In this document: positions 1,696-63,857 of the stretch, one piece after another
Layout of the letters: each line of letters opens with the position of its first letter
Numbering within the stretch: the first letter of the stretch is position 1
NCBI GenBank assembly: GCA_947497475.1
Contig: CANMGS010000002.1
Location: 310,001-374,000, forward strand
DNA: 64,000 bases
Reading direction: 5' to 3'
Source: an uncultured Amylibacter sp.
GTDB lineage: Bacteria; Pseudomonadota; Alphaproteobacteria; Rhodobacterales; Rhodobacteraceae
Notes under the pieces: model-generated
What the model saw: the letters and a program-made list of their open reading frames with translations, nothing else
What the model was told of the DNA's origin: nothing
The model's database searches: none
Position numbers and translations under genes: made by a program

Positions 1696-2694
1696 TTATG
1701 TGCTTTTTTGCACAGGTATTGTCGGCGTAAGCTCTGGCTGATGTGTAATCACAGAAGGATGGATGTATTCTGAGGGACAATTTCCGATTTCACGGGGTTT
1801 GCGAGATAGGAAAAATTTAGCAATTCCACGCTTACTTCCCAGTGGTGTGGCATCTGGATCTTGGGGGAAGCGATCTCGCCATCCATCGGGAAGTTTCAGG
1901 CCGCATTTTTGCGCGCGTTCCAACATCCAGACCAAAGGTATATTGGATAAGTGGCGTGCTTTTGGGAATTCCCAAATATGTCCACCGACATCCGAATGTG
2001 CGCCGCGGAACCATACCTGTTCTAAATGACCCGGCCAATCAGGTTTTGTATGCCATATTACGGGACTATAGGCTGTGCGTGTTTCGTCCATTGCTAAAGC
2101 TTGGAAGCCATTTTTTACATGATTGGCAATGCTGTCATTATGAAATTCCGTTGCCATTGGCGCTAAATGACTGAGCAGGGGGTATTCTATTCCTAAAGCT
2201 TTGACTGTATCCCATACACCGATCATTTCGATGTCTATATCCGTATGACAATTCGCATCGAAGAAAGCTTTCATCACAGCTTCGGTGTCTTCGCATTCGT
2301 ATAAACGAAACGCTTGGCGCACATTGCGTTCAATGGCTTTGTCTTTTCTTAATAACCCAATAGCATCAATCATACCTGCCAAAGAGCGAACCGCATAGGC
2401 GCCACGACTGTAGCCAAATAAATAGATTTTATCGCCAATTTCATAATTGCTACTGAGATGGGCATATGCATCACGGATGGTTTGGTTTATTCCCAAACCA
2501 CTTGCCAAGGTTACCCATTTCCACAAACCGCGTCCCTGAACACCAGGATGATACCAAAGCGTTTCTTCTTTTCGATCATTGGTTTCCTCTAACAACCTGT
2601 AAAGTAAGCCAGCATTGGTTTCATGGCCTTCGATAAGGCGGCTTTGGGTGCCATCAATGATGATGATATGGTTTCTTGGTTTACCTGTGTTCAT
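1696..2694 (-). CDS. DUF2235 alpha/beta-hydrolase-like protein
   Basis: This 332-aa protein starts with HIIIIDGTQSRL, the family's DGT strand. It carries a nucleophile-elbow-like GYSRGA at residues 94-99 inside YLFGYSRGAYAVRSLAGMI, and an HSDVGGH segment further on. This is the pattern of DUF2235, whose relatives include Tle1-type phospholipase effectors of type VI secretion. No secretion signal, effector-immunity partner or T6SS gene is near, and the gene stands alone between the decarboxylase and the methyltransferase, so a housekeeping hydrolase is more likely than an effector. Substrate unknown. Confidence 0.8.
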   Translation of the reverse strand: MNTGKPRNHIIIIDGTQSRLIEGHETNAGLLYRLLEETNDRKEETLWYHPGVQGRGLWKWVTLASGLGINQTIRDAYAHLSSNYEIGDKIYLFGYSRGAYAVRSLAGMIDAIGLLRKDKAIERNVRQAFRLYECEDTEAVMKAFFDANCHTDIDIEMIGVWDTVKALGIEYPLLSHLAPMATEFHNDSIANHVKNGFQALAMDETRTAYSPVIWHTKPDWPGHLEQVWFRGAHSDVGGHIWEFPKARHLSNIPLVWMLERAQKCGLKLPDGWRDRFPQDPDATPLGSKRGIAKFFLSRKPREIGNCPSEYIHPSVITHQPELTPTIPVQKST

Positions 2695-2783
2695 GAGGCA
2701 AAGCTTTACACAGAAAAAAGGAAAAACAACACATCATTGCGCATTTCACGCAAATGCTATGCGATGTTAGAAATGTTACAGTT

Positions 2784-3920
2784 TCAAAGTTCTGTATTTG
2801 AGATCATTATTTCCTTGAAATGGCCATATCCGTTGAACTGTGTTGTGATGGATTTCACATAAGCGCCCATGTTTTCAAAAAGTATATAATCACCTTCTTC
2901 AATCGTGGATGGCAAAGACAGCGATTCTGGTAATTGATCCAGTGAATCGCAGGTTGGACCAAAAATGGTATAATGGGCGGTGTTTCCCATCTTTTGTACA
3001 CCATCCGATGTGATGGTATTGTAGCGGTCTACAGGGCCTATATCTCGGAACTCGGTTAGACCAGAATAGACACCGTCGTTTAGAAAAATATCATTTTTAT
3101 CCAGAGTCTTAACGCGGGTTGCTAAGCTATAACTGTCAGCCGAAATGCTGCGTCCAGGTTCGCAAACCAGTTCTGGTATGTTGATTTTGAAATGGTGTTC
3201 TACAGCTGATTGAATGGTTTGGAAAAACGCTATGAGATCAGGTTTGCTTTTCTCACGAAAGCTGGGGAACCCACCACCAACATTCAATCGTTCTAATGTA
3301 CAACCTGCTTTAAGCGCGATGTCTGAACAAGCTTTTATATACAATGCCCATGCTTTTGGGTCTGTACATTGTGTGCCGGGATGAAAGGTCATCGATGTAC
3401 GGTAATTGCTGTTCTTCAAACGCTTTAATAGGGTAATGCAGTCATTTGAATTTGCCCCAAACTTGGAACCGAAATCATAAGCGGCACCTTCTAAATCCAG
3501 TTTCAAACGGACAGATATTTCAGCACCCTCTGGTGCATATTCAACTAATTTTTCTAATTCTGCCATGCGGTCGACTGAATAACAGCGAATGTTATTTGAT
3601 ACGGCGTGTTTGATTTCTGAAACTGACCGGATTGGATTGTGATAATGAAGCGTAGCATTTGGGGCGATACCCTTAATCAAATCAATTTCAACAGGAGAGG
3701 CGACATCAAAGCTGGTAACGCCAGATGCAATTAATGTTTTTATCACTTTGGGATCTGGGTTTGCTTTTACGGCATAAGTGACAAGACCAGGGAAATGATC
3801 TTGGAACAATTTTGCGGTTTCAGTTAACTTTTGAGGGTTGAAAAACAATACGGGAAGATCGGGCTTGCATTGCTTTAGATACCCATGCCGTGTTTGCCAA
3901 ATCGCTTCTTGAAAACTCAT
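2784..3920 (-). CDS. Type III PLP-dependent ornithine decarboxylase
   Basis: Start chosen at 3920 (378 aa), because a GGAG stands 6 nt before that ATG; an upstream in-frame ATG at 3956 lacks a good site. The alanine-racemase-fold barrel carries the PLP lysine in YAVKANPDP (K52), HPGTQ at 180-184, the phosphate-binding GGGFPS at 215-220 and EPGRS at 254-258. The C-terminal beta domain has GPTCDSLD at 321-328. Its Cys (324) matches the catalytic cysteine of eukaryote-like ornithine decarboxylases and argues against diaminopimelate decarboxylase. The product would be putrescine, possibly cadaverine if the enzyme also accepts lysine. The gene is divergent from an Lrp-type regulator, which is its likely controller. 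Confidence 0.88.
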   Translation of the reverse strand: MSFQEAIWQTRHGYLKQCKPDLPVLFFNPQKLTETAKLFQDHFPGLVTYAVKANPDPKVIKTLIASGVTSFDVASPVEIDLIKGIAPNATLHYHNPIRSVSEIKHAVSNNIRCYSVDRMAELEKLVEYAPEGAEISVRLKLDLEGAAYDFGSKFGANSNDCITLLKRLKNSNYRTSMTFHPGTQCTDPKAWALYIKACSDIALKAGCTLERLNVGGGFPSFREKSKPDLIAFFQTIQSAVEHHFKINIPELVCEPGRSISADSYSLATRVKTLDKNDIFLNDGVYSGLTEFRDIGPVDRYNTITSDGVQKMGNTAHYTIFGPTCDSLDQLPESLSLPSTIEEGDYILFENMGAYVKSITTQFNGYGHFKEIMISNTEL

Positions 3921-47641: not shown

Positions 47642-48022
47642 ATGAATCCCTTGCAAACTAATAATCCACCAAGACCAGCACCATTCTCCCTACGCCTCAA
47701 TGAACAGGAACGTGAGAGATTAGAAGCCGCCGCAGGTGGTATGCCCTTAGCGTCTTATATTAAATCCGTGGTTTTTGCTGACGAGGCACCCAAATACCGA
47801 TCGAGGCGGAAACCACCTGTTGCAGAGCAACAGCTTCTGGCCGAGATATTGGCACGTTTAGGTGCAAGCCGCACCGCAAACAATCTTAATCAAATTGCCA
47901 AAGGCATTAATCAAGGCGCGTTGTTTGTTGATGAGACCCTAGAGGCTGATTTGAACCAAGCCATTATTGAGGTGGCTTGGATGCGGACAACCTTGATCGA
48001 AGCCTTAGGTTTGAAACAATGA
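47642..48022 (+). CDS. mobC: MobC-like relaxosome accessory protein
   Basis: This 126-aa basic protein opens with PFSLRLNEQERERLEAAAGG and shows SYIKSVVFAD, the ribbon-helix-helix-type DNA-binding region, then the family's SRTANNLNQIAKGINQG. It would bind oriT with the relaxase and help nick it. GAGGG stands 8 nt before the ATG. Its stop codon overlaps the relaxase start (ATGA), so the two are translationally coupled. Confidence 0.87.
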   Translation: MNPLQTNNPPRPAPFSLRLNEQERERLEAAAGGMPLASYIKSVVFADEAPKYRSRRKPPVAEQQLLAEILARLGASRTANNLNQIAKGINQGALFVDETLEADLNQAIIEVAWMRTTLIEALGLKQ

Positions 48023-49290
48023 TCCTGAAAGGCTCGCAACGCGCGGGTGTTTCAAATTTATCCAATCACTTGCTGAATGATCGTGACAACGATCATGTCT
48101 CGTTGTTAGAGTTGCGGGGATTTATATCAAGTGATTTACACGGAGCATTAACCGAAACCTATGCGATTTCTCGCGCAACGCAGTGCAAACAATTTATGTT
48201 TTCACTGAGTTTAAACCCGCCCAAAGATCATACTGCGACTGAGGAAGATTTTCTCAATGCCGCCGATCAAGCTGAATTGAAACTTGGGTTGCAAGGTCAG
48301 CCCCGCGCCATTGTTGTCCATGAGAAAGAAGGCAGACGCCATGCTCATGTTGTGTGGTCTCGCATTGATACGGATAGCATGACCGCAATCAATTTGCCGT
48401 TTTTCAAACGTAAGTTAAATGACCTGTCGCGGGATTTGTATCTGGATCACGGATGGCAATTGCCCGAAGGTCTGCAAACACATGGTGGTAAATCACCTCT
48501 AAATTTCACATTGGAAGAATGGCAACAAGCCAAACGCCAAGGCGTTGATCCACGCGAGATCAAACAGATTTTGCAGGACTGCTATCACCGTTCGGATAGT
48601 TTGAAGGGATTGCAGAACAGCATAGAAGATCGTGGCTATTTCCTCGCCAAAGGGGATCGTCGCGGCTTTGTAGCGTTGGATGTTGAAGGCAATATCTATT
48701 CTTTATCGCGTTGGTCTGGTGTCAAAGCCAAAGACTTAAAAGCAAAGCTTGGATCGCCTGAACAGCTTCAATCCGTAACAGAGGCACAATCTCATATCAA
48801 ATCCCGCCTGACAGATCAGATGAAAGACTTCATTCAACAGGTCAAAGCGCGTCATGCGCGCGATTTTGAACCGTTGAAAGCCGAGCGCAATGATATGGTT
48901 GTGGATCATCGCAAGGAACGTGACCAACTTCAAACCAAACAGGATGAACGCTGGCAGAAAGAGGTCAAAACCCGCTCTGCGCGGCTTAATAAAGGTATGC
49001 GTGGTCTGTTTGATTGGATCAGCGGTAAAGGCACAAAAACCAAGGCACAAAACGAATATGAAGCCTACCAATGCCTTCTGCGGGATCGTGAGCAACGCAA
49101 TGATTTAATCAAAGCGCAGATGAAAGATCGCCAGAGTTTGCAACGGCGTTTCGACAAACTGCGCCATAAACAAAAACAAGATCGCAGCATCCTTGCTCGT
49201 AACGTTGCACAATCGTTACGGCAACATTCTAAAAATCAAAATATTACCCACACACGAGGACGCAAACGCGACCTCAATCTTTCAATTTAA
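48019..49290 (+). CDS. mobA: MobA/VirD2-type relaxase
   Basis: Starting at 48019 (MILKGSQRAGVSNL, 423 aa), overlapping the mobC stop. The N-terminal relaxase domain has ELRGFISSDLHGALTE, FSLSLNPPKDH and the three-histidine metal site HEKEGRRHAHVVW (H101, H108, H110). The tyrosine nucleophile cannot be placed with certainty. The C-terminal half is long, charged coiled coil (about 265-400). It nicks oriT and pilots the DNA strand. It belongs to the MobP/MobQ-like relaxases by motif type. Confidence 0.88.
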   Translation: MILKGSQRAGVSNLSNHLLNDRDNDHVSLLELRGFISSDLHGALTETYAISRATQCKQFMFSLSLNPPKDHTATEEDFLNAADQAELKLGLQGQPRAIVVHEKEGRRHAHVVWSRIDTDSMTAINLPFFKRKLNDLSRDLYLDHGWQLPEGLQTHGGKSPLNFTLEEWQQAKRQGVDPREIKQILQDCYHRSDSLKGLQNSIEDRGYFLAKGDRRGFVALDVEGNIYSLSRWSGVKAKDLKAKLGSPEQLQSVTEAQSHIKSRLTDQMKDFIQQVKARHARDFEPLKAERNDMVVDHRKERDQLQTKQDERWQKEVKTRSARLNKGMRGLFDWISGKGTKTKAQNEYEAYQCLLRDREQRNDLIKAQMKDRQSLQRRFDKLRHKQKQDRSILARNVAQSLRQHSKNQNITHTRGRKRDLNLSI

Positions 49291-49316
49291 TCCATACTTA
49301 ATAGGAGATACATACA

Positions 49317-50990
49317 ATGTATAATGGATATTATGACTTCGGGTTATTGATAACCCGTATCGTGATGATGGTTTTATCCGTCGGTGCTGGCTTTATGATT
49401 GGGTGGTTTTTATCCCCACAAGCCGCGCATTTAAGGCGAAAATTTTTAATTGGTATTGCTCTGCTTTTTTTGGCTGTAGCAATTATCAGTAACGGGGCGT
49501 TGGGGTGGAGTGCCGCGTCATTTATCTCCACCATAGGTTTCTTGTTTGGTATCTTTTATTGGCTGGGCGGATATGTTTCAGGAATATTAGAACGACCAAC
49601 AACATTTGGTTCAAGCCGCTGGGCAAATGAAGACGACCTGAAAGAAAACAATGTTTTAGGAAATAATGGTATTCGCCTCGGTGAATTTGAGGTCGAAGAC
49701 AATAATCAAAGCATCTCATACAATGGAGACCGCCATCTTTTAACGGTTGCACCAACGCGTTCTGGCAAAGGAACAACACAGATTATTCCAAACCTTCTAA
49801 GCTATAAGGGATCATGTCTGGTGATCGATCCAAAGGGCGAAAACGCCCTGATTACAGCTAAAGCTCGCAAAGCTATGGGGCAAAATGTGCATATCGTTGA
49901 CCCATGGGGCATTGCTCATGTCGAAGGTATTGAGACGGCACGCTTCAACCCTCTTGATTGGTTAGACATTGCGGATATCGATATTACTGAAAATGCAATG
50001 CTTTTGGCGGATGCATTAGTTGTTGAAAGTAAAAGCGATAAGAGCTTTTTTATCGAAGAGGCGAAAGCTCTTTTGCAAGGCTTGATAATGTATGTGGCAA
50101 CTGCCGATGAAGAGGAAGGTCACAGGACGCTGACACGGGTACGCCAACATCTTGTTGCAAATAGTGAAGAACAAAAAAAGCTGTTTCAGAACATGGCAAA
50201 TTCAGGTCACCATATTATTGCAAGCACAGGCAATCGATGTTTGCAAAAAGACCCTGAATTGTTGTCGAATGTGCTAGCTTCAACGCAAGCGCAAACGCAC
50301 TTTTTAGACAGTGCGCGTATTCAGAAAAATCTTGAAGCATCTGATTTTAAATTCGAGGCCTTAAAGGCAAAACCAATGACGATCTATCTGGTCTTGCCAG
50401 CGGATCGCCTCAATGCCTTTGGTCGGTGGTTGCGTCTGTTGGTACAACAAGCCATTACTATGAATGCCCGTAACATAGACATTCAACCAGAAAAGCCTGT
50501 GCTGTTTATTCTGGATGAATTCGCGGCATTGGGTCGTTTAAGCATGGTTGAACAAGCATACGGGCTTATGGCTGGCTTTGGCATTCAGCTTTGGGGTATT
50601 GTGCAGGACTTTAATCAGTTGGAACGTATTTACGATAAAGGATGGCAATCCTTTGTGTCTAACTCAGGAATGATTAATTACTTTGGTTCCAGCGATAAAA
50701 TGACTTCTGAATATTTTTCATCCATGTGTGGTGAAACAACCGTTTGGAATTTTAGCACGGCGGTTTCCAGTGCGTTCTCGGGCGGTACGAGTGGTGGTTC
50801 AACGAATACTTACACAGACACTCGTGCAGCATCACAACGTAAATTGATGTATCCAGATGAATTGATGCGCTTGAAAAAGGGTAAGCAAGTAGTGTTTGTT
50901 GAAAATATGCACCCATTGATCGCACAAAAAACTCCGTGGTTTGAGGATGACGATCTGAAAACTAAAGGTGTAGATTTACACAGTAAATAA
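49317..50990 (+). CDS. virD4: Type IV coupling protein VirD4/TraG
   Basis: This 557-aa protein has two to three N-terminal membrane helices (about 10-88) and a RecA-like ATPase with Walker A APTRSGKGT at 145-153, LVIDPKGEN near 165-175 and Walker B LFILDEFAALGRL near 398. It connects the relaxosome to a type IV secretion channel. GGAG precedes the ATG. Only 26 bp separate it from the relaxase gene, so mobC-mobA-virD4 is one operon; a full mating-pore set is not in the window. Confidence 0.93.
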   Translation: MYNGYYDFGLLITRIVMMVLSVGAGFMIGWFLSPQAAHLRRKFLIGIALLFLAVAIISNGALGWSAASFISTIGFLFGIFYWLGGYVSGILERPTTFGSSRWANEDDLKENNVLGNNGIRLGEFEVEDNNQSISYNGDRHLLTVAPTRSGKGTTQIIPNLLSYKGSCLVIDPKGENALITAKARKAMGQNVHIVDPWGIAHVEGIETARFNPLDWLDIADIDITENAMLLADALVVESKSDKSFFIEEAKALLQGLIMYVATADEEEGHRTLTRVRQHLVANSEEQKKLFQNMANSGHHIIASTGNRCLQKDPELLSNVLASTQAQTHFLDSARIQKNLEASDFKFEALKAKPMTIYLVLPADRLNAFGRWLRLLVQQAITMNARNIDIQPEKPVLFILDEFAALGRLSMVEQAYGLMAGFGIQLWGIVQDFNQLERIYDKGWQSFVSNSGMINYFGSSDKMTSEYFSSMCGETTVWNFSTAVSSAFSGGTSGGSTNTYTDTRAASQRKLMYPDELMRLKKGKQVVFVENMHPLIAQKTPWFEDDDLKTKGVDLHSK

Positions 50991-50999
50991 TTACAAAGG

Positions 51000-51024
51000 A
51001 TTTGGCGGGGTTCTCCCGCCAAAT
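51000..51024 (+). terminator. Terminator after virD4
   Basis: ATTTGGCGGG and CCCGCCAAAT form a perfect 10-bp stem with a 5-nt loop, 9 bp after the stop. No long T-run follows (TGCATTT). Confidence 0.75.
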
Positions 51025-51058
51025 TGCATTTAAAAATTCATAAATAAGGATCGTTAAA

Positions 51059-51601
51059 ATGTCCGATGAAGGTAAGAAATCCAATGAAAGCTCGGAAGAT
51101 TACAATGCAGAAAATGACACACGCGCGGTTGCTGATAAGGATACGACTAAACAGACGTTAAAGCCTAAATACGCTCGTTCTATTGGTAATGCAGCAATGA
51201 CACCAACTGGAACAATTTCTATTCCAGCAAAGCGCGAAGTAACAATAACCGTTACTAATGAGGAACTACCAGAAAGTGTAGTAAAAATTGATCTTAGTCG
51301 TAATGACATTAACCATGAAGAAAAGATCAAAGATGTAAACGTTCTTCTTCGATTGGATTATGATGGCGCTAACCCAGAAGGGATTGATGGTGGTCGCATT
51401 ACCAGAATGACACTGACAAAAGGTGAAGTTGGGGAAGAGGAAATCTTAGCTCATTTCGATAATGGAGACTGGGTACAAAAACCTGAAACACCTTTGGAAA
51501 TACAAGTGATGATGAAGGCAAAGAAAGAACATAATGGCTTGGAAATGCCAGAGATAAAAGCCGCATTTGATCAAGCTTTGAAAAACAAAATAAAACCATA
51601 G
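51059..51601 (+). CDS. Acidic hypothetical protein
   Basis: This 180-aa acidic protein has a long disordered N-terminus (about 1-45, rich in Ser, Glu, Asp) and a later beta-rich part (SIPAKREVTITVTNEELPESV, then VLLRLDYDGANPEG). A ribosome site AAGGA lies about 8 nt before the ATG. I do not recognise it. Its position behind virD4 suggests element-specific cargo. Confidence 0.55.
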   Translation: MSDEGKKSNESSEDYNAENDTRAVADKDTTKQTLKPKYARSIGNAAMTPTGTISIPAKREVTITVTNEELPESVVKIDLSRNDINHEEKIKDVNVLLRLDYDGANPEGIDGGRITRMTLTKGEVGEEEILAHFDNGDWVQKPETPLEIQVMMKAKKEHNGLEMPEIKAAFDQALKNKIKP

Positions 51602-51641
51602 CAAAGTAGTTTTAGGTCAGCATTTATGATATATTATATGT

Positions 51642-52280
51642 ATGGCAGAAGATAAATTTAATCGAACTACTGAGTACATTGGAAGACTAGTAAAAAACGG
51701 ATTTGGGAAACTCGAGACCGTTACTCTACCCAAAGGGTACTGGGAATATTTTGATTGGTGCGTTCAGCAAGGCTGGGACATGGATGAGTGGACCATGTAT
51801 CAAGACTACGACCGTTTACCAGACGATAGTTTTAGCGAAAAAATTCATTTCGAATTCTGGCGGTTATTATGCAGTAGGCACAAACAAGGATTGCTTTGTC
51901 CACCTAACTGTCCGCCTGACGGTTATGATGATTTTCTTGAGGATATAGAATCTGGCAAATACAGCGAAATTCTACCTAATGATTCAGATATAAATAATAT
52001 GGGCGAACGAGTTTCTAAGCCTCTTATAACGGCATCGGATCAGGTTGAAATTGTGTCTTTACCTCGTAGGCATTGGTTACATTTTGAGTGGTTGTATATT
52101 CATGGCAGGGATATGGAGGCGTGGGTCAAAAAGCTGGATTTAGAGCGTCATACATATGAAGGTTTTCGAATAACGCTAGAAAGGTATTTGGAAATGGCTT
52201 TGGTCATGGATGAAGCTAACCGTCACAGAGCGGGTGAGGATGTCCCTTTATTTATTAACCCGCACCGTTGTGTAGATTGA
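51642..52280 (+). CDS. Hypothetical protein with two RHH_4-like repeats
   Basis: This 212-aa protein contains two similar copies of a segment: residues about 26-79 (VTLPKGYWEYFDWCVQQGWDM, then FWRLL) and about 136-190 (VSLPRRHWLHFEWLYIHGRDM, then RYLEMAL). Each resembles the RHH_4 ribbon-helix-helix domain, in which a strand (SLxxxxW) is followed by two helices. A tandem RHH protein would fit an element regulator. The family match is my reading and weak. The last 58 bp overlap the convergent resolvase gene. Confidence 0.55.
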   Translation: MAEDKFNRTTEYIGRLVKNGFGKLETVTLPKGYWEYFDWCVQQGWDMDEWTMYQDYDRLPDDSFSEKIHFEFWRLLCSRHKQGLLCPPNCPPDGYDDFLEDIESGKYSEILPNDSDINNMGERVSKPLITASDQVEIVSLPRRHWLHFEWLYIHGRDMEAWVKKLDLERHTYEGFRITLERYLEMALVMDEANRHRAGEDVPLFINPHRCVD

Positions 52281-52738
52281 TTTTTCTTTTTTCTCGGTCG
52301 CCCAATTTTAACACCACGCTTTCTGGCGGCTTCCATGCCCGCTTTTGTTCGTTCGCTGATATTTTCCCGTTCAAATTCCGCAAAAACTGCAAGCTGACCG
52401 TAAAGCATTCGCCCTATAGCCGTTGTTGTATCTATCCCTTGGGTGATAGCCTGAAAATCCACACCGCGATTTCTGAGGTCATCCAAAAGCTGTAAAAGAT
52501 GAATTGTAGAACGTCCAAGACGATCCAGCTTCCAAACAACCAGAGTATCGCCTTGTTTCAGACTTGATAGCATTTCATCAAGCCCACGCCGCTTCTTAAT
52601 TGATCCTGATACGCCATGATCGCCATAAATGATGTCGCAACCCACGGCCTTTAATGCATCCACTTGTAATGCTTCGGTTTGATCCTTGTCCGATACGCGA
52701 ACGTAGCCAATAATCTTTCCAGTTGTTTTTTGTGTCAT
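52223..52738 (-). CDS. Serine recombinase (resolvase/invertase family), C-terminally shortened
   Basis: The 171-aa product has the intact catalytic domain: GYVRVSDKDQ with the nucleophile S16, VVWKLDRLGRS, and the long E-helix FERENISERTKAGMEAARKRG. It ends at GRPRKKKNQ with 20 unrelated residues in place of the usual 40-45-residue helix-turn-helix of Tn3-type resolvases. It could still act if another protein supplies DNA contact, or be decaying. Its 3' end overlaps the convergent RHH-like gene. Confidence 0.85.
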   Translation of the reverse strand: MTQKTTGKIIGYVRVSDKDQTEALQVDALKAVGCDIIYGDHGVSGSIKKRRGLDEMLSSLKQGDTLVVWKLDRLGRSTIHLLQLLDDLRNRGVDFQAITQGIDTTTAIGRMLYGQLAVFAEFERENISERTKAGMEAARKRGVKIGRPRKKKNQSTQRCGLINKGTSSPAL

Positions 52739-54801: not shown

Positions 54802-55773
54802 TTATGAATTAGCAGAGCCAAACATTGCAGTTGTAGATAAATTCAAACATACTTTTTGTCCTGATGCAAATGCATCAGATGTCGTCGAAGCGTTATTTCT
54901 ATGTGTCGAGTAATGCCAAACTCGAACGTCTGGATGAAATCTTATCGCAATAATTAAAGAAAATACTGCGAATATTTTAGGTCCCATCGGTAACAAAAGT
55001 ACTCTGTGTGTAGCTTTTTTATGTCGAACCAATTCAAATAATGATGCAAGTGTTTCTTCGGGGGAGGAAAGATCATATTTCACAACATTATTGGAGTTCT
55101 CAATAAACTCAAACCCGTAGTTTGCATTCCTGATAGCATCCTCAAAACGTGGGTCTGTTCCGACTGGAGTAAATACAAAAATCTCATCTGGCTCTAAACG
55201 ATCTTGTGCTCCAATAACTTTGCCGAACTCATATCCAGAACCGACAATCATACATAGTTTTTGATCGCTTGAGCGGGATGAGCCCGAAAACTCTGGTAGC
55301 ACTGGGCCGAACTTTGAAACGGTATCGAGCACATTGAAAGGTTTGGAAAAAACTTGAGGAAAGTACAATACATTGACATCAATAATAATTCCTCGATTCC
55401 TATAAACAGCTAATAGTAGCTCTGAAATTAAACTGCGGTCTAGCGAGCTAAAATCAATCGTGACACTTATCTTATTACCGCTATATTCAAGGCACCGACG
55501 ATTGAATTCATTTATGAATAAATTAGGGTCTGAAAGTTTATTATCATCTAACTGCATCTCATTTACGATCTTTAGATTAGCATCATAGCTATGCATACCA
55601 ACAGCTTGATAATCATAAATTAAGATTGCATCAAATTCTGTTAGTGTTTCAGATAACAAAAATTGACATGATCTTTTCTCATAACCCAATGCACCAATCA
55701 AAATCTTGACGGTTTTCGTTGCATCTTCTGTTGGCTTTGAAAGCATATCATTCGTCCCAGTTAAAAAGCGCAT
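54802..55773 (-). CDS. Last protein of the methylase-phosphoesterase-ATPase operon, unknown fold
   Basis: This 323-aa soluble protein starts at 55773 with GAGG 6 nt upstream; an in-frame ATG one base after the ATPase stop (55746) is an alternative. Alternating strands and helices (VKILIGALGYEKRS, ISVTIDFSSLDRSLISELLLAVY, LCMIVGSGYEFGK, ATHRVLLLPMGPKIFAVFSLIIA) suggest a Rossmann-like alpha/beta fold in two halves. GYEKRS recurs in some defence-linked unknowns, but I cannot assign a family. It overlaps the ATPase by 26 nt, so their production is coupled and they probably act together. There is no nuclease or ligand motif I can name. Confidence 0.75.
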   Translation of the reverse strand: MRFLTGTNDMLSKPTEDATKTVKILIGALGYEKRSCQFLLSETLTEFDAILIYDYQAVGMHSYDANLKIVNEMQLDDNKLSDPNLFINEFNRRCLEYSGNKISVTIDFSSLDRSLISELLLAVYRNRGIIIDVNVLYFPQVFSKPFNVLDTVSKFGPVLPEFSGSSRSSDQKLCMIVGSGYEFGKVIGAQDRLEPDEIFVFTPVGTDPRFEDAIRNANYGFEFIENSNNVVKYDLSSPEETLASLFELVRHKKATHRVLLLPMGPKIFAVFSLIIAIRFHPDVRVWHYSTHRNNASTTSDAFASGQKVCLNLSTTAMFGSANS

Positions 55774-57556
55774 TTTGCGCCTCAGGTTGATGAAACTCTA
55801 AGTGTGAAATTTTTCGTTCACTACCAGTTTGGGTGGGTAAAGGGTACCATGGTGAAAGCTGGTAAGAAATTCTAAACCTCAATCCTTGGAGGTCTAAGTG
55901 CAACCCTCGTTGATTAGATTCATCTAGAATAATAGCACCTGAATTCACAGCAATACCCAATATTCGCAATGAATAATCTCCCATACTTTGAGCAATTTTA
56001 AATGCAAGTTGCGGTTCAGGTGAAAATGTTTTTGTAATTAATTGTGTATATAGTCCTTCTCCTAAAATATCGACAACATCAAGAGCGTGTGACATTCGTT
56101 TATTATAGCTTGGATCAAACGGTACAATTTGTGTTGCAACTAACGCTCGAAATCTATTAACATTTTTTTTGATAACATCTTTTAAAGCGCCTTGTGACGG
56201 CCTATTAGCATTCATACAGTTAATAATGTCATCGCAATAAAAATGGATAGCCCTTGGGTTTTGCTCTGTAAGTTTTAATATCTGATCAAAGCTATTGAAA
56301 TAATGATATGATTTGCGAGAGGCTTTTATCCCTTTGCCGCCCTTAAACGACTTCAAATAATGATATCTAAATTCAGAGACACCACCTAATTTTCTCACAA
56401 GCGGAGCTTTGTTCTTCTCAGTATAATTTGATATTTCAGAAATAATTATATTGTTATCTTTTAGATATGATGCAAAGGTATGATCCTTTTCGGATAAACT
56501 TCGAAATATCTCCTTATATCGGCGTATACGGTGCCCATTATCTTTAAATTGCAAGGTATGTTGATCTGCAGCGGAGTTCACGTATTTTTTGAATGAATCC
56601 AGATTTACATCTCGACTATCGCAAATCTTGGAAATTAGTTCTGAGGCAAAACTGTAAGTTTCATTTTTAAATTTTCCACTCAACGTTATAGTTTCAAAGT
56701 CATGTCCTTCTTGTGGCCCAGAACGACTAGAGCCATCCTCCTTTACAAAATCAATATACGGGAAAAGTGAAAATTTTATCACAGCCCTACTATCAAAGGA
56801 GCGTAAGCGTTGATAAATCTCGTTTAATATTGATTGTGGTGCTATTTCCATTTCATCAAAATGGAGGGCCCATTTTTTAACACCAGTAAGCTCCTGCATA
56901 ATTTCAAAGAAACCAGTTAACATTATAAACAGATTTCTTGGTTCTTCATGATTTATATCTGAGAAGTCAGGGTCATCTAAGGAATTAATCATAGCAGAAT
57001 AACTATTCTGCCGTTTCAGTAGCGCTAATTTAAGTCCTAAAAAAGATTTTGGGCGACTTGGTAACTCCCAAAACGCAGAACATTCTTGGCATATATTTGC
57101 TTCAACTTCACGAGAAACTTTAAAACACCACTTAGGTAATTCTTCATCATACTTAGTCGCAATCTCAGCGGCATCTTGAATTGACGCTATAACTTCATAC
57201 AAGCAATAATCTACAAATAAGGCATGTTGTACAAATTGGATAGTTTCAGATTTAATATCTGAGCGGCCTAGGCTTTGCATATTTTCAAATGCACTAGCCT
57301 CTCCTTTCCATAGAGTGTCAGCTGGAATATATAATGGAACATGGTCAAGGTCCAAATTTTCAAACTCTGGCCTTTTACGTAATTCATGTAATCCTGTAGG
57401 CGTCAACAATTTAAGTATCGTTGTCTTACCTATACCTCTAGGACCAACTAAAACCTTACTTTGATACTCTAAAATTTTCTCAAAGTCATCGGGTTTTACA
57501 AATGATTGTGCGATTTGACGAGGATCACTATTGCGGGCATTATATGCATCAGACAT
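55748..57556 (-). CDS. ORC/CDC6-like AAA ATPase
   Basis: Start at 57556 (MSDAYNARNSDPRQ, 602 aa) with GGAGG 6 nt upstream, overlapping the phosphoesterase stop by 8 nt. The P-loop GPRGIGKTT is at 38-46 and Walker B HFDEM at 232-236. The opening ARNSDPRQIAQSFVKPDDFEK, ending just before the P-loop, is typical of bacterial ORC-CDC6-type ATPases seen in defence islands. A winged-helix-like C-terminal part is possible (about 500-560). A CxxC pair at 156-159 (CQEC) may bind metal. It would drive the partner nuclease or translocation along DNA; that is inference. Confidence 0.85.
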   Translation of the reverse strand: MSDAYNARNSDPRQIAQSFVKPDDFEKILEYQSKVLVGPRGIGKTTILKLLTPTGLHELRKRPEFENLDLDHVPLYIPADTLWKGEASAFENMQSLGRSDIKSETIQFVQHALFVDYCLYEVIASIQDAAEIATKYDEELPKWCFKVSREVEANICQECSAFWELPSRPKSFLGLKLALLKRQNSYSAMINSLDDPDFSDINHEEPRNLFIMLTGFFEIMQELTGVKKWALHFDEMEIAPQSILNEIYQRLRSFDSRAVIKFSLFPYIDFVKEDGSSRSGPQEGHDFETITLSGKFKNETYSFASELISKICDSRDVNLDSFKKYVNSAADQHTLQFKDNGHRIRRYKEIFRSLSEKDHTFASYLKDNNIIISEISNYTEKNKAPLVRKLGGVSEFRYHYLKSFKGGKGIKASRKSYHYFNSFDQILKLTEQNPRAIHFYCDDIINCMNANRPSQGALKDVIKKNVNRFRALVATQIVPFDPSYNKRMSHALDVVDILGEGLYTQLITKTFSPEPQLAFKIAQSMGDYSLRILGIAVNSGAIILDESNQRGLHLDLQGLRFRISYQLSPWYPLPTQTGSERKISHLEFHQPEAQNALFNWDE

Positions 57557-58793
57557 CGTCTTCCTCCACGTAAAAAGCGAATTTTTCCACTCCATTTTTG
57601 GGTATCGTTTCTACTGAATGCGTATTTTTTAAATACGCCTGCAAATCATGTAAATCGTTTTGAGTAAGAAACTTTAATTCAGGCACTGTCTCGAATGCTG
57701 CCCGTCCTGTCAAACTGCCTCCATCTTTGACTTCTTCGTAGATTTTATTGGCAATTTCTGTGATTGAAGCTTTACGACCAAAGCCAATAAGATGTGTCAT
57801 TCCTGATGAACCAGCTTTATCCCATTGATTTGCAACCCAATCCCAACTACGAATTTGCCCAGATAAAGATTTAGTTGCATTATCCAAATTAATATCCAAA
57901 ATGTGGAACTGGCATTTATAATTTTCTTCCATTTTTGGATAAGGTCTCGCAGCAAGACTTGCTGCCGATAATATCCAAGGAGAATTAGCTTTATCGTTAT
58001 ATTTTTGAAAATTAACAAAATGCTTATGGCCGTGAATTACAAAGCTAGGCTTATCCATTTTTTGCAAAGCGGATAAGAAATCGGCTCCATTCTCAATGTA
58101 GTCAGTTTCTATGTCCTGTTCTTGATGAACAGAGATTGGATGGTGGTGCATTGAAACGATAAAAGCAGAACAAGCAGATTTTTTCATTCGCGTTTCAATT
58201 TTGTCAATCATGTCGTCGCTAATAAAACCTTTATTCCATAGGTCTGATTTATTTGCCCCACCATAACCTAAAAGGGATGATGTATCTATTAGCACTAAAC
58301 CAATGTCTCCATCTTCAATAATCGTAAACTTTTCGCTATGGTATTCTGTATGCTGTTTTTTATCTTTTACAGGAAAAAGTGGTTTCAAATGATTTAACAT
58401 CGAATTCGGAAGCCCATTTTCGAAGTCGACTTTATGGGCTGCTACGTCATGATTTCCACTAACGGCTAACAACTTAGATATATTCAAATCAGAGGCAATA
58501 TTATTTAGTTGTTGCCATATAATTTGGAGTACACTTTTTTTACATTGATGAGCCATATCGCCAAGACAAATCATATAGTCAATTTCATCGTCTAATTTAT
58601 TTTCTTTCAGGAACTTGGGGACAGCGAGTAAACGATTTTGCCGAACTGACATTTCTTCAACCATTACAAGCCCTCTAGTAGTACCGCTATACCCACCGAC
58701 TGCTTTCAATTGCGGCTTAGGTTGAGTGCTCTCGGTTAAATCCAAAAGGTCTTTTGACATCGCATGGATATCGCTGATTATGAGAATTTTCAT
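57549..58793 (-). CDS. Calcineurin-like metallophosphoesterase
   Basis: This 414-aa protein shows all five blocks of the calcineurin-like fold: D8-x-H10 (ISDIHA), GD at 78-79 (CLGDMAH), GNHD at 113-116, the H216-H218 run (MHHHP) and GHKH at 255-258. It is therefore probably active with two metals. Family members with such domains include Mre11/SbcD nucleases as well as phosphodiesterases. The C-terminal 120 residues (after about 290) are outside the fold and may bind DNA or a partner. Four bp separate it from the methylase gene, and its stop overlaps the ATPase start. Confidence 0.88.
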   Translation of the reverse strand: MKILIISDIHAMSKDLLDLTESTQPKPQLKAVGGYSGTTRGLVMVEEMSVRQNRLLAVPKFLKENKLDDEIDYMICLGDMAHQCKKSVLQIIWQQLNNIASDLNISKLLAVSGNHDVAAHKVDFENGLPNSMLNHLKPLFPVKDKKQHTEYHSEKFTIIEDGDIGLVLIDTSSLLGYGGANKSDLWNKGFISDDMIDKIETRMKKSACSAFIVSMHHHPISVHQEQDIETDYIENGADFLSALQKMDKPSFVIHGHKHFVNFQKYNDKANSPWILSAASLAARPYPKMEENYKCQFHILDINLDNATKSLSGQIRSWDWVANQWDKAGSSGMTHLIGFGRKASITEIANKIYEEVKDGGSLTGRAAFETVPELKFLTQNDLHDLQAYLKNTHSVETIPKNGVEKFAFYVEEDDV

Positions 58794-58797
58794 ATTA

Positions 58798-59688
58798 TTA
58801 TAGTACTGCTATTAATTCGTTTTGACTGTTGCGCCGATTTTTAAACCCACCAACATTCCTAGATACTTGAATTTCTTCCTGTATACAGTCATCAAAGAGA
58901 TCGCGAAATTCGGCACATTCTTTATATGAAACAATTACTTTGTTTCCATTATTTGCCCATTTACGTGCCACATTAGACAAGCGAATTAAATCATCATGTG
59001 AAAATGTTTTAGGGCCGTATTCCCGAAAGACTCTCTGACCAGCAGTATAATATGGTGGGTCCATGTAGATAGTACCGTCTACGGGGCCGACATCATCAAG
59101 AAATTGTTCAAAATCACAGCTATGAAACTCAGCTTTTTTTATAAGCTCTGAAAATTTCAAGAAACTATCTCTATCAATTAACTTTAACTTACCACCTCCA
59201 AAAGGCGTATTAAATTTATTTTGCAAATTAGTTCTATAAATCCCGTTAAAACAAAGATGATTTAGGTACATAAAATATGCTGACCTGCGCACACAATTTC
59301 TCATCCGATTATACTCAGATCGAACCCAATAATATGTATCCTGATCGACCTTCAAACGGTTATATATTTCCCACAATGGTTCAGGATTATCACTTGCATC
59401 ACGATAAAAATTAATAAGCGATATATTTAAGTCATTTAGATACGCGCCTTCAGGTTGATTTCTAAAAAAAAGAACTGCAGACCCAGCAAAAGGCTCATAA
59501 TATTTTTTTGTGAAATCAATATAATGTTCCAATGACGGGGCTATTGGTAATTTACTACCAGCCCATCGTATCGGTTTAATCTGGTGTGCTTTATAAATGG
59601 CGTGCCTATCTCTTTTTATTAATCGTTTATACAGTAGACAGACTGAATTATACTCAGATTCTGAATAAGCATTAACATAACATACCAA
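58798..59688 (-). CDS. D12-class DNA adenine N6-methyltransferase (Dam type)
   Basis: This 296-aa protein contains KPIRWAGSK (38-46), motif I EPFAGSAVLF (65-74), the FNGIYRTN segment at 147-154 with the D12 hallmark, and motif IV DPPY at 210-213. That order (WAGSK, F.G, FNG, DPPY) is the Dam/DpnM class, which methylates adenine in short palindromes such as GATC; the actual target is unknown. The only plausible start is a TTG at 59688 without a good ribosome site, so the N-terminus (about 36 residues before KPIRWAG) is uncertain. It is the first gene of the operon. Confidence 0.86.
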   Translation of the reverse strand: MVCYVNAYSESEYNSVCLLYKRLIKRDRHAIYKAHQIKPIRWAGSKLPIAPSLEHYIDFTKKYYEPFAGSAVLFFRNQPEGAYLNDLNISLINFYRDASDNPEPLWEIYNRLKVDQDTYYWVRSEYNRMRNCVRRSAYFMYLNHLCFNGIYRTNLQNKFNTPFGGGKLKLIDRDSFLKFSELIKKAEFHSCDFEQFLDDVGPVDGTIYMDPPYYTAGQRVFREYGPKTFSHDDLIRLSNVARKWANNGNKVIVSYKECAEFRDLFDDCIQEEIQVSRNVGGFKNRRNSQNELIAVL

Positions 59689-59804: not shown

Positions 59805-60707
59805 ATGTTTAAGGAAAAACAATTTGATATTGAGCATGCGCTTAGTATGTATGCTTTAAGCGATTTTTGCTTTCCTGTTGAAGCAATATACGACGATGAA
59901 ATTATTAAGTCTCTAGGGGAAAGAGTTAACAATTGCCATATTTATATGATTGGTTTGATGCCCGAAACAATGATCTTAGATGTTGTTCAAAAAGATAGTG
60001 AATTAATTGTATCTTTTAACGTTCTTGATAAAGAGCATGATATTTCCATCCCAATTCAAGATGGTTACAATTTAGTCCAAAATGAAAACGATTTTTTCGT
60101 CGAGAATGATCAAGGCGAGCAATTATACCTGCCTCAAAATCTAATAATGAATGCATTAAGTAATCAAATTGGAGGGCTTCCTTTTAATGTACAATATATA
60201 GGGCAAGCGTATGGGGCAGATGGGTCGAGAAACGCCATTGATCGGCTAAGAAAACACGAAACTCTACAAAAAATTTCAATAAAAGGCACTCCAGATGGAC
60301 ATAGATTAATGTTATATTTGTTAGAGATTGAACCTGCAAATCAGGTGTTTACATTTTTTAATCCGTTTGCCGATGATACGACACAGGGAGAAGAACGTAT
60401 TCAGGCGGGGGTGAAAAAATTGTTTGGTACAAGTGAAGGCGAACGTATTACATTATATGAAGCGTCATTAATTCGTTATTTTCGCCCCCATTTTAATACT
60501 GTTTTTAAAAATAGCTTCCCATCAACAAAAATGAAAGTTTTAGAAGATTGTTACGAAAAGGATTTTTCAGCAATCGTTGCTGAGATTTGTTTTGATCATA
60601 ATCCGTTTTTATTGTGTTCAGAAAATGTTGAACCTAGTGAGTATCACATAATCAGACATAATCTTCATGAAACTGCAGAACGTCAGGTCTTCTTTTTCGG
60701 AAAATAA
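59805..60707 (+). CDS. GIY-YIG-like protein with an extra N-terminal domain
   Basis: The 300-aa protein is divergent from the methylase operon. Residues 128-240 resemble a GIY-YIG nuclease core: VQYIGQA at 129-135, RLRKHETLQKI at 147-157 (the R..H element), then EASLIRYFRPHFN at 219-231 with the family's E...LI..F.P..N. The first motif reads YIG without a clean GIY partner. N-terminal residues 1-125 are of unknown type. GAGG lies about 8 nt upstream of the ATG. A nuclease role is inference. Confidence 0.7.
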   Translation: MFKEKQFDIEHALSMYALSDFCFPVEAIYDDEIIKSLGERVNNCHIYMIGLMPETMILDVVQKDSELIVSFNVLDKEHDISIPIQDGYNLVQNENDFFVENDQGEQLYLPQNLIMNALSNQIGGLPFNVQYIGQAYGADGSRNAIDRLRKHETLQKISIKGTPDGHRLMLYLLEIEPANQVFTFFNPFADDTTQGEERIQAGVKKLFGTSEGERITLYEASLIRYFRPHFNTVFKNSFPSTKMKVLEDCYEKDFSAIVAEICFDHNPFLLCSENVEPSEYHIIRHNLHETAERQVFFFGK

Positions 60708-60857: not shown

Positions 60858-61814
60858 ATGAAAAATGATCTCCAAATTAATACTGCACTTTATAGTGCCT
60901 TAGAGCATTATCGAGAAATCTTTGATAGATTTCCCCAAAGTGAGTTAAGTATAGATACAATCAACAACCTTGGTTTCTTTGCTCTAGCAAAATTACAAAA
61001 TGAAAAACTTAATATCCAAATTAGCCTTGGTGTCCTTGATAGTATTCAATCCCTTTGGAGGAACTTCTTAAAAGCCAATCAAGACACGTTTTTTGGTTCT
61101 CTAGGCAAGGGAAAATTAATCCAAGGCTCCTTAGTTTGGCTTTTTCTTCACGAACTCAGCCACTACACACTCGGTCATTTTAAAATTACAGGCGAGCAAG
61201 CAATAGCGGAAACAGCCAAAGGCCGTGAATTTGGTTTACTGTCCCGCGCGCCAGAACAGAAACTTCCATATGACGCCTTAAATGATCTGGATTACGTGCA
61301 AATTGAGCGGTGTCTTGAATTACAGGCAGATCACGAAGCGATAGATATGTTTCTAGAAGGCTATTCAACAGATGAATGGGAAGAATTACGTCTGCGTGTG
61401 GCCTGTATATCTGCTGTTATGGTTTTGATTGATGTTGAAGACAGCAAACATACGGTTGTAGATTCATCCCACCCCAAGGCGGCAACGCGGATATTTCAGC
61501 TATTGGGGCATTTATCCGAAATGCCTTTGATTCATGCGCAACTATCAGGTGATACGAATGATATCCCAACCGATGATGAACAACGCGCGTTTTCAAAAGA
61601 GGTTGTTATTCCAGCCTTCTTTGATGCAATCGAATTAGTAAAAGCCGTAAACGCAGAGCATATATTGGATGAATTGGGTGATTTACCCACTTTTTTCCAA
61701 GACGTGTTATTGGTAAAAACAAATACTCAAGCTGGAGCTGGCCAATATCAAACGGTTGGTGCAATAGAGTTGAGTGGGTTAATAAGTTTGAATGAGAAAA
61801 TTCTGTATTTTTAA
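60858..61814 (+). CDS. HExxH metallopeptidase-like protein (M48-like)
   Basis: This 318-aa protein lacks signal peptide and membrane segments. The zinc motif HELSH at 98-102 (LFLHELSHYTLGHF) is followed 51 residues later by E154 in CLELQADHEA, with a D at 158, the gluzincin ligand pattern of M48/M41-like peptidases. A C-terminal SHPKAATRIFQLLG adds the M48-type HP..R region. It could be a cytosolic protease activated upon infection or stress. The lack of a membrane domain sets it apart from HtpX/Ste24. Confidence 0.72.
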   Translation: MKNDLQINTALYSALEHYREIFDRFPQSELSIDTINNLGFFALAKLQNEKLNIQISLGVLDSIQSLWRNFLKANQDTFFGSLGKGKLIQGSLVWLFLHELSHYTLGHFKITGEQAIAETAKGREFGLLSRAPEQKLPYDALNDLDYVQIERCLELQADHEAIDMFLEGYSTDEWEELRLRVACISAVMVLIDVEDSKHTVVDSSHPKAATRIFQLLGHLSEMPLIHAQLSGDTNDIPTDDEQRAFSKEVVIPAFFDAIELVKAVNAEHILDELGDLPTFFQDVLLVKTNTQAGAGQYQTVGAIELSGLISLNEKILYF

Positions 61815-61880: not shown

Positions 61881-63857
61881 ATGCTATTGTCTCGTGTATT
61901 TAATTACTCTCAAACTTTATCTACTATGGCCTTAACAACAGCACTAACTCTTAATACAACTTTTGCTGTGTATGCACAAAGTGATAACAGCACTATTCAG
62001 GATAATTTGCCACAAGGGGCAAATGAAATACTGCCACGTCTAGATAAGTCAGCTGACCTCCTTTTACCTGACGGCCGTGAAATTAGTATACATCCAGATT
62101 CTAGAACTGCTGCGGGCACCATTGGGTCACAATTCTTCCATAGACCAATTAACGCGTTCATTACAGTAAGTGATAGTAAGCACGGACACGCCATTATTCA
62201 TGATAAATATGAAGATGAGACACATGTTTATATTGCAATTAGGTTGGCTGTCTCAACTCCAACATTTAGAGAGCTTAGCCGTGGCGCTGTAATAGAAGAG
62301 GATCCTGCTGTTCGCCTAATAAAACCAGAAATAGAAGATCGAGAGATTGATGTGAGGCGTTGGCCTTTGAAGCTATATCGATTAGAAGCAAAACACGCGC
62401 TTACAGGAAAACGATACAGTGAAGCTTCCGATCTAGAATCTCTTCGTTCTAGGGGGGATGAGCTGCCAATGATCATTAAAATACCTTCTGATGAATATGA
62501 AGAATTTTTAATAAACCTAAAAGCAGATCGAATTAATTTTTATCCATCCTATACTTTTAATAATGCTATTATTGCATTCGGGCAATCAGCGACAACACTC
62601 TCAGGTGAAGTATCAATTGCAATCAGCAATGCTTTATCCAGCCAGCAGCTAGAAGAAGGCGGCGCCATTTTTCAGGAAGATGCAAGTAAACTTGAAAATT
62701 TGATTGAGCAAAATATAGTTACAACTATTAGGGCAACTGATCAAAGTGTTTTGGCACATATAACGCCAAAAGATGTATCTAGTAAAATTATTCAAGCAGA
62801 AAGTTTAAAATTTAATTCTCTTGGCGGAGATGAAGCCTTGTTAAGCAGCGTTTCCGAGTACTTAGTACCTATAGTTAGAAAAATGAAAGAAGAATACCAT
62901 GATGAAACAACTACAAGTAGCACAGACGAACAAAATGATGATCTTACAATTAAATTAGGAGCAAATGCTACGCCAACTACTATAGGGAATATGCTTAAAA
63001 CTGGTCTTGGTATTAGTGGCGATTTGACGCTTACGAAAAAACAAGTCCAGACCTTAACGAATGTACATAACGTTAAATTTAATGAAACCGAAGAAAAAGA
63101 TGTTATTGAGCCGCATAGCATCAGCATCAGTACTATTCGTAATGGTTGGCAGAATGACCTTCTAAATATCTTTCAGACAATTTATCTGGCCGTCGGTCGA
63201 GACAATTCATTTCAACAGGATTCGTCGTTTCGAGCTAGTTTTACATTACAGGTTTTGGGCGAGGCAATAGGTGAAAACCAGATTGTTGTGTCACCATACA
63301 GTGGTGTCCCTAAAGGTGTGCCAATGATTAGTTTCCGTTCTGATATCCCCAAAGGCTGGGTAGCTCTGGATGGTAAAGCTATCTGGCCTAATGAGAACTG
63401 GGTACCAAAACATCTACGTAGTAAACATGTACCAGATATGAGAGGAGCATTTGCACGTGGAGCTATGCCAAATGAGTTAATCGGGCAAATGTTGCTTGAA
63501 AACACGATTAAAATCCCTTCTAAAACTATTAAAGGTGCTGATTTTATTTTAGATGGGCAAGGTGATGTCTCTGCATTAAACAGCCGAAGGCAGATAACTC
63601 AATATATCGCTGAAGAAGATAATCAACAAGGCACCGGTAACCTTACTGGATGGTATAATCGTAAAGCGCATGGTAGCTTATTTTATGATGTCGGTAAACG
63701 AGTACAGGGTAAGCCACCACAAGTATTCACTGTAGATATCTATAAAGATTATACCATTAAAGGTACTCATGTTATTCCTGAAGAAAACATCGATTTGGCT
63801 GATCCAAAGCACCAGCCGCCCCACAATGTTGGGCTTTGGATTATGAGGATCAAGTAG
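61881..63857 (+). CDS. Large secreted protein with phage tail-collar-like C-terminus
   Basis: This 658-aa protein has a signal peptide (about 1-33, cut after VYA) behind an AGGAG ribosome site. The central part (about 35-470) is of unknown type, with a long polar segment and coiled-coil-like stretches. Residues from about 487 show IPKGWVALDGKAIWP, VPDMRGAFARGA and a final PPHNVGLWIMRIK, the order of phage tail-collar/tail-fibre tip domains. In phage these bind receptors; here the host-style signal peptide and absence of phage genes suggest an exported protein using that fold. Function unknown. Confidence 0.7.
   Translation: MLLSRVFNYSQTLSTMALTTALTLNTTFAVYAQSDNSTIQDNLPQGANEILPRLDKSADLLLPDGREISIHPDSRTAAGTIGSQFFHRPINAFITVSDSKHGHAIIHDKYEDETHVYIAIRLAVSTPTFRELSRGAVIEEDPAVRLIKPEIEDREIDVRRWPLKLYRLEAKHALTGKRYSEASDLESLRSRGDELPMIIKIPSDEYEEFLINLKADRINFYPSYTFNNAIIAFGQSATTLSGEVSIAISNALSSQQLEEGGAIFQEDASKLENLIEQNIVTTIRATDQSVLAHITPKDVSSKIIQAESLKFNSLGGDEALLSSVSEYLVPIVRKMKEEYHDETTTSSTDEQNDDLTIKLGANATPTTIGNMLKTGLGISGDLTLTKKQVQTLTNVHNVKFNETEEKDVIEPHSISISTIRNGWQNDLLNIFQTIYLAVGRDNSFQQDSSFRASFTLQVLGEAIGENQIVVSPYSGVPKGVPMISFRSDIPKGWVALDGKAIWPNENWVPKHLRSKHVPDMRGAFARGAMPNELIGQMLLENTIKIPSKTIKGADFILDGQGDVSALNSRRQITQYIAEEDNQQGTGNLTGWYNRKAHGSLFYDVGKRVQGKPPQVFTVDIYKDYTIKGTHVIPEENIDLADPKHQPPHNVGLWIMRIK

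Follow-up and report, generated by a model that had tools for sequence, protein, structure and literature searches.

We describe a run of four genes on the minus strand of a 64,000-nucleotide stretch from an uncultured Amylibacter sp. (contig CANMGS010000002.1, positions 310,001 to 374,000; hereafter the window). The predicted products are a Dam-family DNA adenine methylase, a calcineurin-like metallophosphoesterase, an ORC/Cdc6-like AAA+ ATPase and a stand-alone CARF6 protein. We read this run, with a probability of roughly 0.6, as a methylation-guarded anti-invader cassette with a nucleotide-degrading phosphoesterase. In unrelated genomes the same four genes are again found as a unit, and cassettes without the methylase gene are found in hosts that have a housekeeping Dam of their own, a complementarity that is new to us. 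We propose that the methylase places a self-mark on the host's DNA, GATC being the most likely site, and that the ATPase and its tandem-CARF6 partner form a sensor, which would respond to DNA without the mark, to a nucleotide accompanying invasion, or to both. When triggered, the ATPase/CARF6 pair would activate an interchangeable effector, here the metallophosphoesterase, which would degrade free or cyclic nucleotides so that replication of the invader stops, probably at a cost to the cell.

Recurrence of the cassette and its relation to host Dam

A query for close relatives with the ATPase alone found none; an alignment query was then used to scan 84,980 species genomes, and at least 59 loci were found. 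The phosphoesterase gene lies directly upstream of the ATPase gene in 57 of the 59 listed loci, and the CARF6 gene lies directly downstream in 57. A Dam-type methylase gene is adjacent in 44, and all four genes are present in 43; this co-occurrence far exceeds chance. The listed loci wanting a phosphoesterase or CARF6 gene are L072 and L103, both truncated where their contigs end, and L105, which was rejected as a member because its ATPase match is weak and it has no partner genes. The 43 full cassettes are spread over Pseudomonadota, Bacteroidota, Actinomycetota, Planctomycetota, Verrucomicrobiota and Gemmatimonadota (one Rhodococcus had been filed under Cyanobacteriota through a name clash), with a further one in an unassigned SAR324 metagenome-assembled genome (MAG). 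When the longest open reading frames (ORFs) are taken, adjacent genes most often meet in a 4-nt overlap, both at the phosphoesterase-ATPase junction (29/57 listed loci) and at the ATPase-CARF6 junction (18/57). For the 45 sets with all four families (44 loci and the window), the protein distance matrices correlate at 0.77-0.89, compared with a permutation maximum of 0.19, which argues that the four genes are passed on together. Its distribution is patchy, since among 61 genomes (the window's own and 60 relatives) the ATPase was found at E 0.001 only in the window's own. Five plasmids bear a relative. Four of these were examined: three, from S. meliloti (pSmeSM11b), Cupriavidus and Methylobacterium, carry all four genes with their order unchanged, and the cassette of a Pseudoalteromonas plasmid has no methylase. 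Several copies of the cassette lie on contigs of more than 1 Mb. No relative was found in phage records (tblastn, 1e-5) or in IMG/VR (alignment query).

The methylase of the window matches PF02086 at 3e-42 and belongs to the Dam family by its match to TIGR00571 (7e-56; 189.8 bits, cut-off 114.85). Its nearest solved structures are DpnM (2dpm, 9e-34) and EcoDam (4rtj, 5e-24). The DPPY and NG..R motifs are kept in 45 of 45 cassette methylases, and NG..R and N.P together in 44 to 45 of them; the latter two motifs, whose residues we take to be GATC contacts, are common to the cassette methylase, DpnM and EcoDam. From this homology and the host-Dam complementarity described below, GATC is most likely the methylated site. 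Counts of GATC are near expectation (13 observed, 19.7 expected in the cassette; 301 and 320.8 in the window) and were not used in the argument.

Host Dam was searched for with the housekeeping Dam profile NF008152, in the genomes of 50 of the 59 listed loci and in the window's own genome, and then in those of eight more; L067 repeats L003. A locus was called methylase-less if the fetched stretch had neither a D12-type profile match nor, phosphoesterases apart, an ORF with the motif DPP[YFW]. By this definition eight of the 59 listed loci lack a D12 methylase (L052, L077, L079, L080, L081, L083, L088 and L091), and all but L080 are labelled gammaproteobacteria. Across the 50 loci and the window's genome, NF008152 scores lie between 333 and 447 bits in seven genomes, exactly the methylase-less ones, and reach at most 181 in the rest. 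In the window's genome the cassette methylase stands alone, without a housekeeping Dam. A further 13 cassettes came from extra sampling of three groups that overlap in part, centred on Aliivibrio (394 genomes), Pseudoalteromonas (345) and Vibrio (329). By the same definition every one of them is methylase-less, and their hosts all have Dam scores of 379 to 439 bits. In the resulting table of 68 rows, 20 cassettes are methylase-less in Dam-positive hosts and 48 bear a methylase in hosts without Dam; both mixed cells are 0.

The rows omit L072, whose contig is truncated upstream, L103, whose ATPase is truncated, the non-member L105 and the duplicate record L067; the plasmid records L002, L003, L004 and L005, which come without a host chromosome and of which L004, from Pseudoalteromonas, is methylase-less; L080; and L135/L038, from a distant subfamily with no recognised methylase and no Dam. 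L090 and L095, where the methylase is nearby on the opposite strand, were scored as methylase-bearing, and dropping both leaves the result unchanged. L051, L053 and L055 were also scored as methylase-bearing, as the slot is occupied by a divergent D12 protein, identified by PF02086 in L051 and L055 and by position and the DPP[YFW] motif in L053.

On the ATPase tree there are four independent pairs, all four concordant; one of them is formed by a distant clade on a long branch (L113, L114, L126-L128, L133, L134). Dam-less gammaproteobacteria in the same tree, of the genera Cellvibrio, Teredinibacter, Halomonas, Methylomonas and Dyella, keep the methylase, and two of these are sisters of methylase-less clades, so that lineage alone is insufficient as an explanation. 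The absence of the methylase in Dam-positive hosts thus argues for a Dam/GATC self-mark, and the simplest reading is that the cassette methylase and host Dam make the same mark. The first-pass annotation had proposed that the methylase marks self; this gains support, in that the methylase behaves as a self-marker replaceable by host Dam.

A thymidylate synthase gene lies just downstream of the methylase-less cassettes in Aliivibrio (L083, 10772-11644) and in a genome of the Vibrio mytili family (L131, 10725-11576), by some link or by chance, and an AbiH-family gene adjoins the methylase-less cassette of L128 (10921-11799).

The ATPase/CARF6 core and its predicted effectors

The ATPase scores 363 bits against PF24389 (ORC-CDC6-like; cut-off 27), and its fold is of the ORC/Cdc6 type. 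The fourth protein, first annotated as unknown, can now be placed: residues 21-308 match the PADLOC CARF6 profile PDLC01918 at 3.9e-39, although Pfam gives no match. Its structural model (pLDDT 91) is two-lobed like the Can1/SAVED nucleotide receptors and matches Can1, Can2, Csm6 and Csa3, as expected for a CARF (Rossmann-like) fold, with low overall Foldseek TM-scores (0.37 to Cap5). The kept residues (E32, R34 and D107 in one group; G180, E182, G264 and K266 in the other) follow strands 1 and 4 of each lobe, if the two-residue strand 79-80 is counted, a placement that fits a predicted ligand pocket.

Possible sources of a nucleotide ligand were sought in the hosts. SMODS cyclases exceed the cut-off in only 8 of 51 hosts, and none was found in the window's genome. 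With PF22335 as a probe for Cas10, 23 of the 51 hosts match at E 0.001, of which 11 score above the 27-bit cut-off (best 34.8 bits), but the probe is unspecific, as E. coli also exceeds the cut-off and Cas10 is not separable from ordinary GGDEF proteins; this same probe gave no match in the window's genome.

The PF24389 cut-off is exceeded in 14 of 398 genomes of the phylum, and 83 match at E 0.001. From the 13 genomes other than the window's, 11 loci were examined, together with G182, a copy of G332. CARF6 is next to the ATPase in 7 of the 11 and fused to it in one; it was unrecognised in the remaining three (29 to 41 bits), where the PADLOC scan covered part of the neighbors. CARF6 profiles also match 13 stand-alone counterparts encoded at other loci, and candidate neighbors of the weak ATPase loci L045 and L046 fail to match. 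The phosphoesterase slot is occupied by HD-CE in L037 and L039 and by PRTase-CE in L036, L040 and L043 (by Pfam) and L041 (by clustering). Both HD-CE loci have a C5 methylase in the same gene run, and in L036 the gene directly behind CARF6 encodes a methyltransferase whose N6_Mtase match exceeds the cut-off. In L042 (6494-10213), a single protein of 1239 aa is covered end to end by PADLOC CARF_STK_AAA, which points to a version of this ATPase/CARF6 core with a kinase. The core is constant in these loci and the class of effector is interchangeable. Separately, in L046 a type II-like methylase gene (2585-3874) adjoins a PF24389 ATPase gene without recognised CARF6, next to a TniQ-like protein; this is perhaps another branch of the class.

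The phosphoesterase matches PF00149 (1e-11) and, at its C-terminus, the winged helix-turn-helix (wHTH) family PF24408, wHTH-Calcineurin_assc (3e-11; 43.5 bits, cut-off 27), and its metal ligands are kept in 55 or 56 of 56 sequences. PADLOC has no good model for it (best 2.6e-3) or for the ATPase (best 7.5e-4). In profile comparison it is closest to Lmo2642 (1.7e-17), whose match alone spans the domain, and then to Rv0805 (1.9e-10, over a stretch of 63 positions), both of which we take to be cyclic-nucleotide phosphodiesterases; SMPDL3A (1.4e-4), Mre11 (2.6e-4) and SbcCD (2.9e-4) follow. HD-CE and PRTase-CE are predicted nucleotide-targeting enzymes, and together these swap partners and nearest solved relatives favor nucleotide hydrolysis. 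The first reading was of an ATPase-driven phosphoesterase or nuclease; of the two, the nuclease is the less likely, as Lmo2642 and Rv0805 rank above Mre11.

Should the phosphoesterase instead be a DNase, the same guard would serve a restriction-like system, in which the wHTH tail and the ATPase lead the enzyme to unmethylated GATC DNA for direct cutting. A Dam-type guard as in DpnII-like restriction-modification, the wHTH tail itself, the ORC/Cdc6-type fold of the ATPase, and the Mre11 and SbcCD matches, which are level with that to SMPDL3A, are all compatible with this. We nevertheless consider it rather unlikely, given the identity of the two strongest matches, the use of the same slot by HD-CE and PRTase-CE, which by name are not DNases, and a CARF protein that direct cutting would leave unexplained. 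It is very improbable that the phosphoesterase acts as an off-switch, destroying the cyclic nucleotide bound by CARF while the toxic step lies elsewhere. The nearest solved relatives, which we assume to cleave cyclic nucleotides, and the presence of a CARF/SAVED-like receptor would suit such a role. So would SMPDL3A, which cleaves cGAMP according to PMC13092281. But the four genes include no other effector and no cyclase, unrelated enzyme classes fill the same slot, and most hosts are without SMODS cyclases.

Several observations count against a methylation-guarded cassette. The methylase-less call covers the D12 type, so that a methylase of another class may be present in some of these loci. 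L080, from a fragmentary 1.3-Mb MAG labelled Nitrosomonadales, is methylase-less with no Dam found; its ATPase is nearly identical to that of L079. Upstream of the phosphoesterase gene, the contig extends for just 495 bases in L079, 641 in L091 and 382 in L080; L129, near-identical to L091, is methylase-less with a full upstream stretch. There are only four transitions, too few by themselves for significance (sign test, p 0.125), and the ATPase tree does not separate loss of the methylase from its gain. In the distant subfamily G332/G182, the phosphoesterase, ATPase and CARF6 genes are found, but neither a methylase within the fetched stretch nor a host Dam was recognised. Among the seven unfused loci that are not of the window's type, a methylase was recognised in three, the neighbors having been scanned in part. 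The GATC specificity of the methylase is a prediction from homology and complementarity, and no nucleotide cyclase or Cas10 was found within the cassette, so that the CARF ligand has no evident source.

Gene layout and neighborhood in the window

The first-pass annotation of this run is confirmed as to what it observed. All four ORFs are in place at 54802-59688 (Table 1), with a 4-bp gap between the methylase and phosphoesterase genes and a 26-nt overlap between the ATPase gene and the fourth gene. The 8-nt overlap given for the phosphoesterase and ATPase genes is obtained from an internal ATG, residue 14 of the ATPase ORF, which agrees with homolog starts; the listed ATG gives 47 nt. Counted from this internal start, the ATPase motifs are where they were placed, with the P-loop at 38 and Walker B D/E at 234/235 (in ORF numbering, from residue 51 and at D247/E248). 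DPPY is found at 210-213 of the methylase, and the metal blocks of the phosphoesterase are all present (D8/H10, D79, N114-H115-D116, H217, H254/H256/H258). The methylase ORF has no ATG. Its sole standard start is TTG at 59688, but ATT at 59598, of a rare type and closer to the homolog start, is a possible alternative.

Table 1. Genes of the cassette and their positions in the window
Predicted product	Position	Strand	Profile
D12-class (Dam family) N6-adenine DNA methyltransferase	58798..59688	-	PF02086, TIGR00571
Calcineurin-like metallophosphoesterase, C-terminal wHTH, predicted effector	57549..58793	-	PF00149, PF24408
ORC/Cdc6-STAND-clade AAA+ ATPase, probable start 57556	55748..57595	-	PF24389
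Stand-alone two-lobed CARF6 protein, predicted nucleotide sensor, possible start 55743	54802..55773	-	PADLOC CARF6

The mobilisation genes reported upstream of the cassette were also recovered. The region 47642-52738 has a MobC-like gene just below its cut-off, a MobA/VirD2-type relaxase gene (PF03432, over cut-off), and then a coupling-protein-like gene (49317-50990) and a resolvase-like gene (52223-52738), the last two named by inspection of the sequence without a profile scan. A mobilisable element probably adjoins the cassette. The second gene beyond the cassette (60858-61814, plus strand) encodes a putative metallopeptidase with a HELSH motif. It weakly resembles the phage-exclusion protein Lit (PADLOC, 8e-9; PRK09672, 8e-7, far below cut-off) and is possibly another defense gene. 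The products of 59805-60707 and 61881-63857, both on the plus strand (300 and 658 aa), have no Pfam or NCBIfam match over cut-off.

This setting bears on a further alternative, that the cassette is an addiction or maintenance module in which loss of the methylase lets the other three proteins kill element-free cells, with no main role against phage. Cassettes do occur on plasmids and, here, beside a relaxase gene, and the guard logic would be that of restriction-modification addiction. We regard this as improbable, because the methylase-less forms in Dam-positive hosts could not act through methylase loss, several copies are on the contigs of more than 1 Mb, and some neighbors resemble defense genes (AbiH at L128, the Lit-like gene in the window).

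Relation to known systems and significance

The first-pass annotation recognised no described system with exactly this set. The four-gene set itself appears in no title or abstract listed by searches of an open-licence library, a scope outside which most subscription papers fall. The kind of system, judged by family assignments, is already known in prediction: the Pfam names of the ATPase and of the phosphoesterase tail fit such a setting, which indicates earlier recognition, as do CARF6 and the HD-CE and PRTase-CE loci. PF24389, PF24390 (PRTase-CE) and PF24391 (HD-CE) have consecutive accession numbers. We take these families and PF24408 to stem from Nicastro et al. 2023 (NAR), and the naming of CARF6 presumably follows Makarova et al. 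2020.

The cassette shares with the Pfam set of ORC-CDC6-like and calcineurin-associated wHTH families an ATPase and a phosphoesterase above the family cut-offs, and with the ORC-CDC6-like set the related loci in which HD-CE or PRTase-CE fills the phosphoesterase slot. Its fourth protein matches the PADLOC CARF6 profile, but is a stand-alone protein beside an ATPase, and none of the four genes belongs to type III CRISPR; unlike Can1 (6sce) and the SAVED proteins Cap4 and Cap5, it has no fused nuclease. The methylase, nearest DpnM, is of the Dam family as in DpnII/MboI-type restriction-modification, whereas the cassette is without a restriction-endonuclease domain: the other three proteins match no restriction-endonuclease family in PADLOC, Pfam or NCBIfam, so that it does not qualify as type II restriction-modification. 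Nor does it qualify as CBASS, with no CD-NTase among the four proteins. BREX (BrxC) was rejected, as PglZ, BrxX/PglX and BrxL are missing among the four, and Ssp (SspC) was rejected for the lack of Ssp proteins.

Among the DefensePredictor systems DS-8, DS-9 and DS-41, an SMPDL3A-like metallophosphatase is essential for phage protection in DS-8 and DS-9, according to PMC13092281. The cassette likewise has a metallophosphatase, but differs from these systems, as described there, in having no NACHT or HAD partner. Membership in DS-9 was rejected, the phosphoesterase scoring 36.8 bits against the 420-bit cut-off of DS9_1 (NF053862); the ATPase scores 28.1 bits against DS41_1, below its cut-off of 370.

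In a more far-reaching form of our proposal, which we put forward tentatively, the absence of Dam/GATC methylation would be read by an ORC/Cdc6-type ATPase and passed on as a nucleotide signal to a tandem CARF receptor independent of Cas10 and CD-NTase, and the response would be destruction of nucleotides, not cutting of DNA. With a methylase of its own that can be shed where host Dam is used, such a system may represent a new class of immunity. If the cassette is indeed guarded by methylation, an orphan set of conflict genes would gain a concrete trigger in DNA that lacks Dam methylation, and the question would arise which ligand this CARF6 clade reads without a co-encoded Cas10 or CD-NTase. 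It would also mean that a defense system borrows the housekeeping epigenetic mark of its host.

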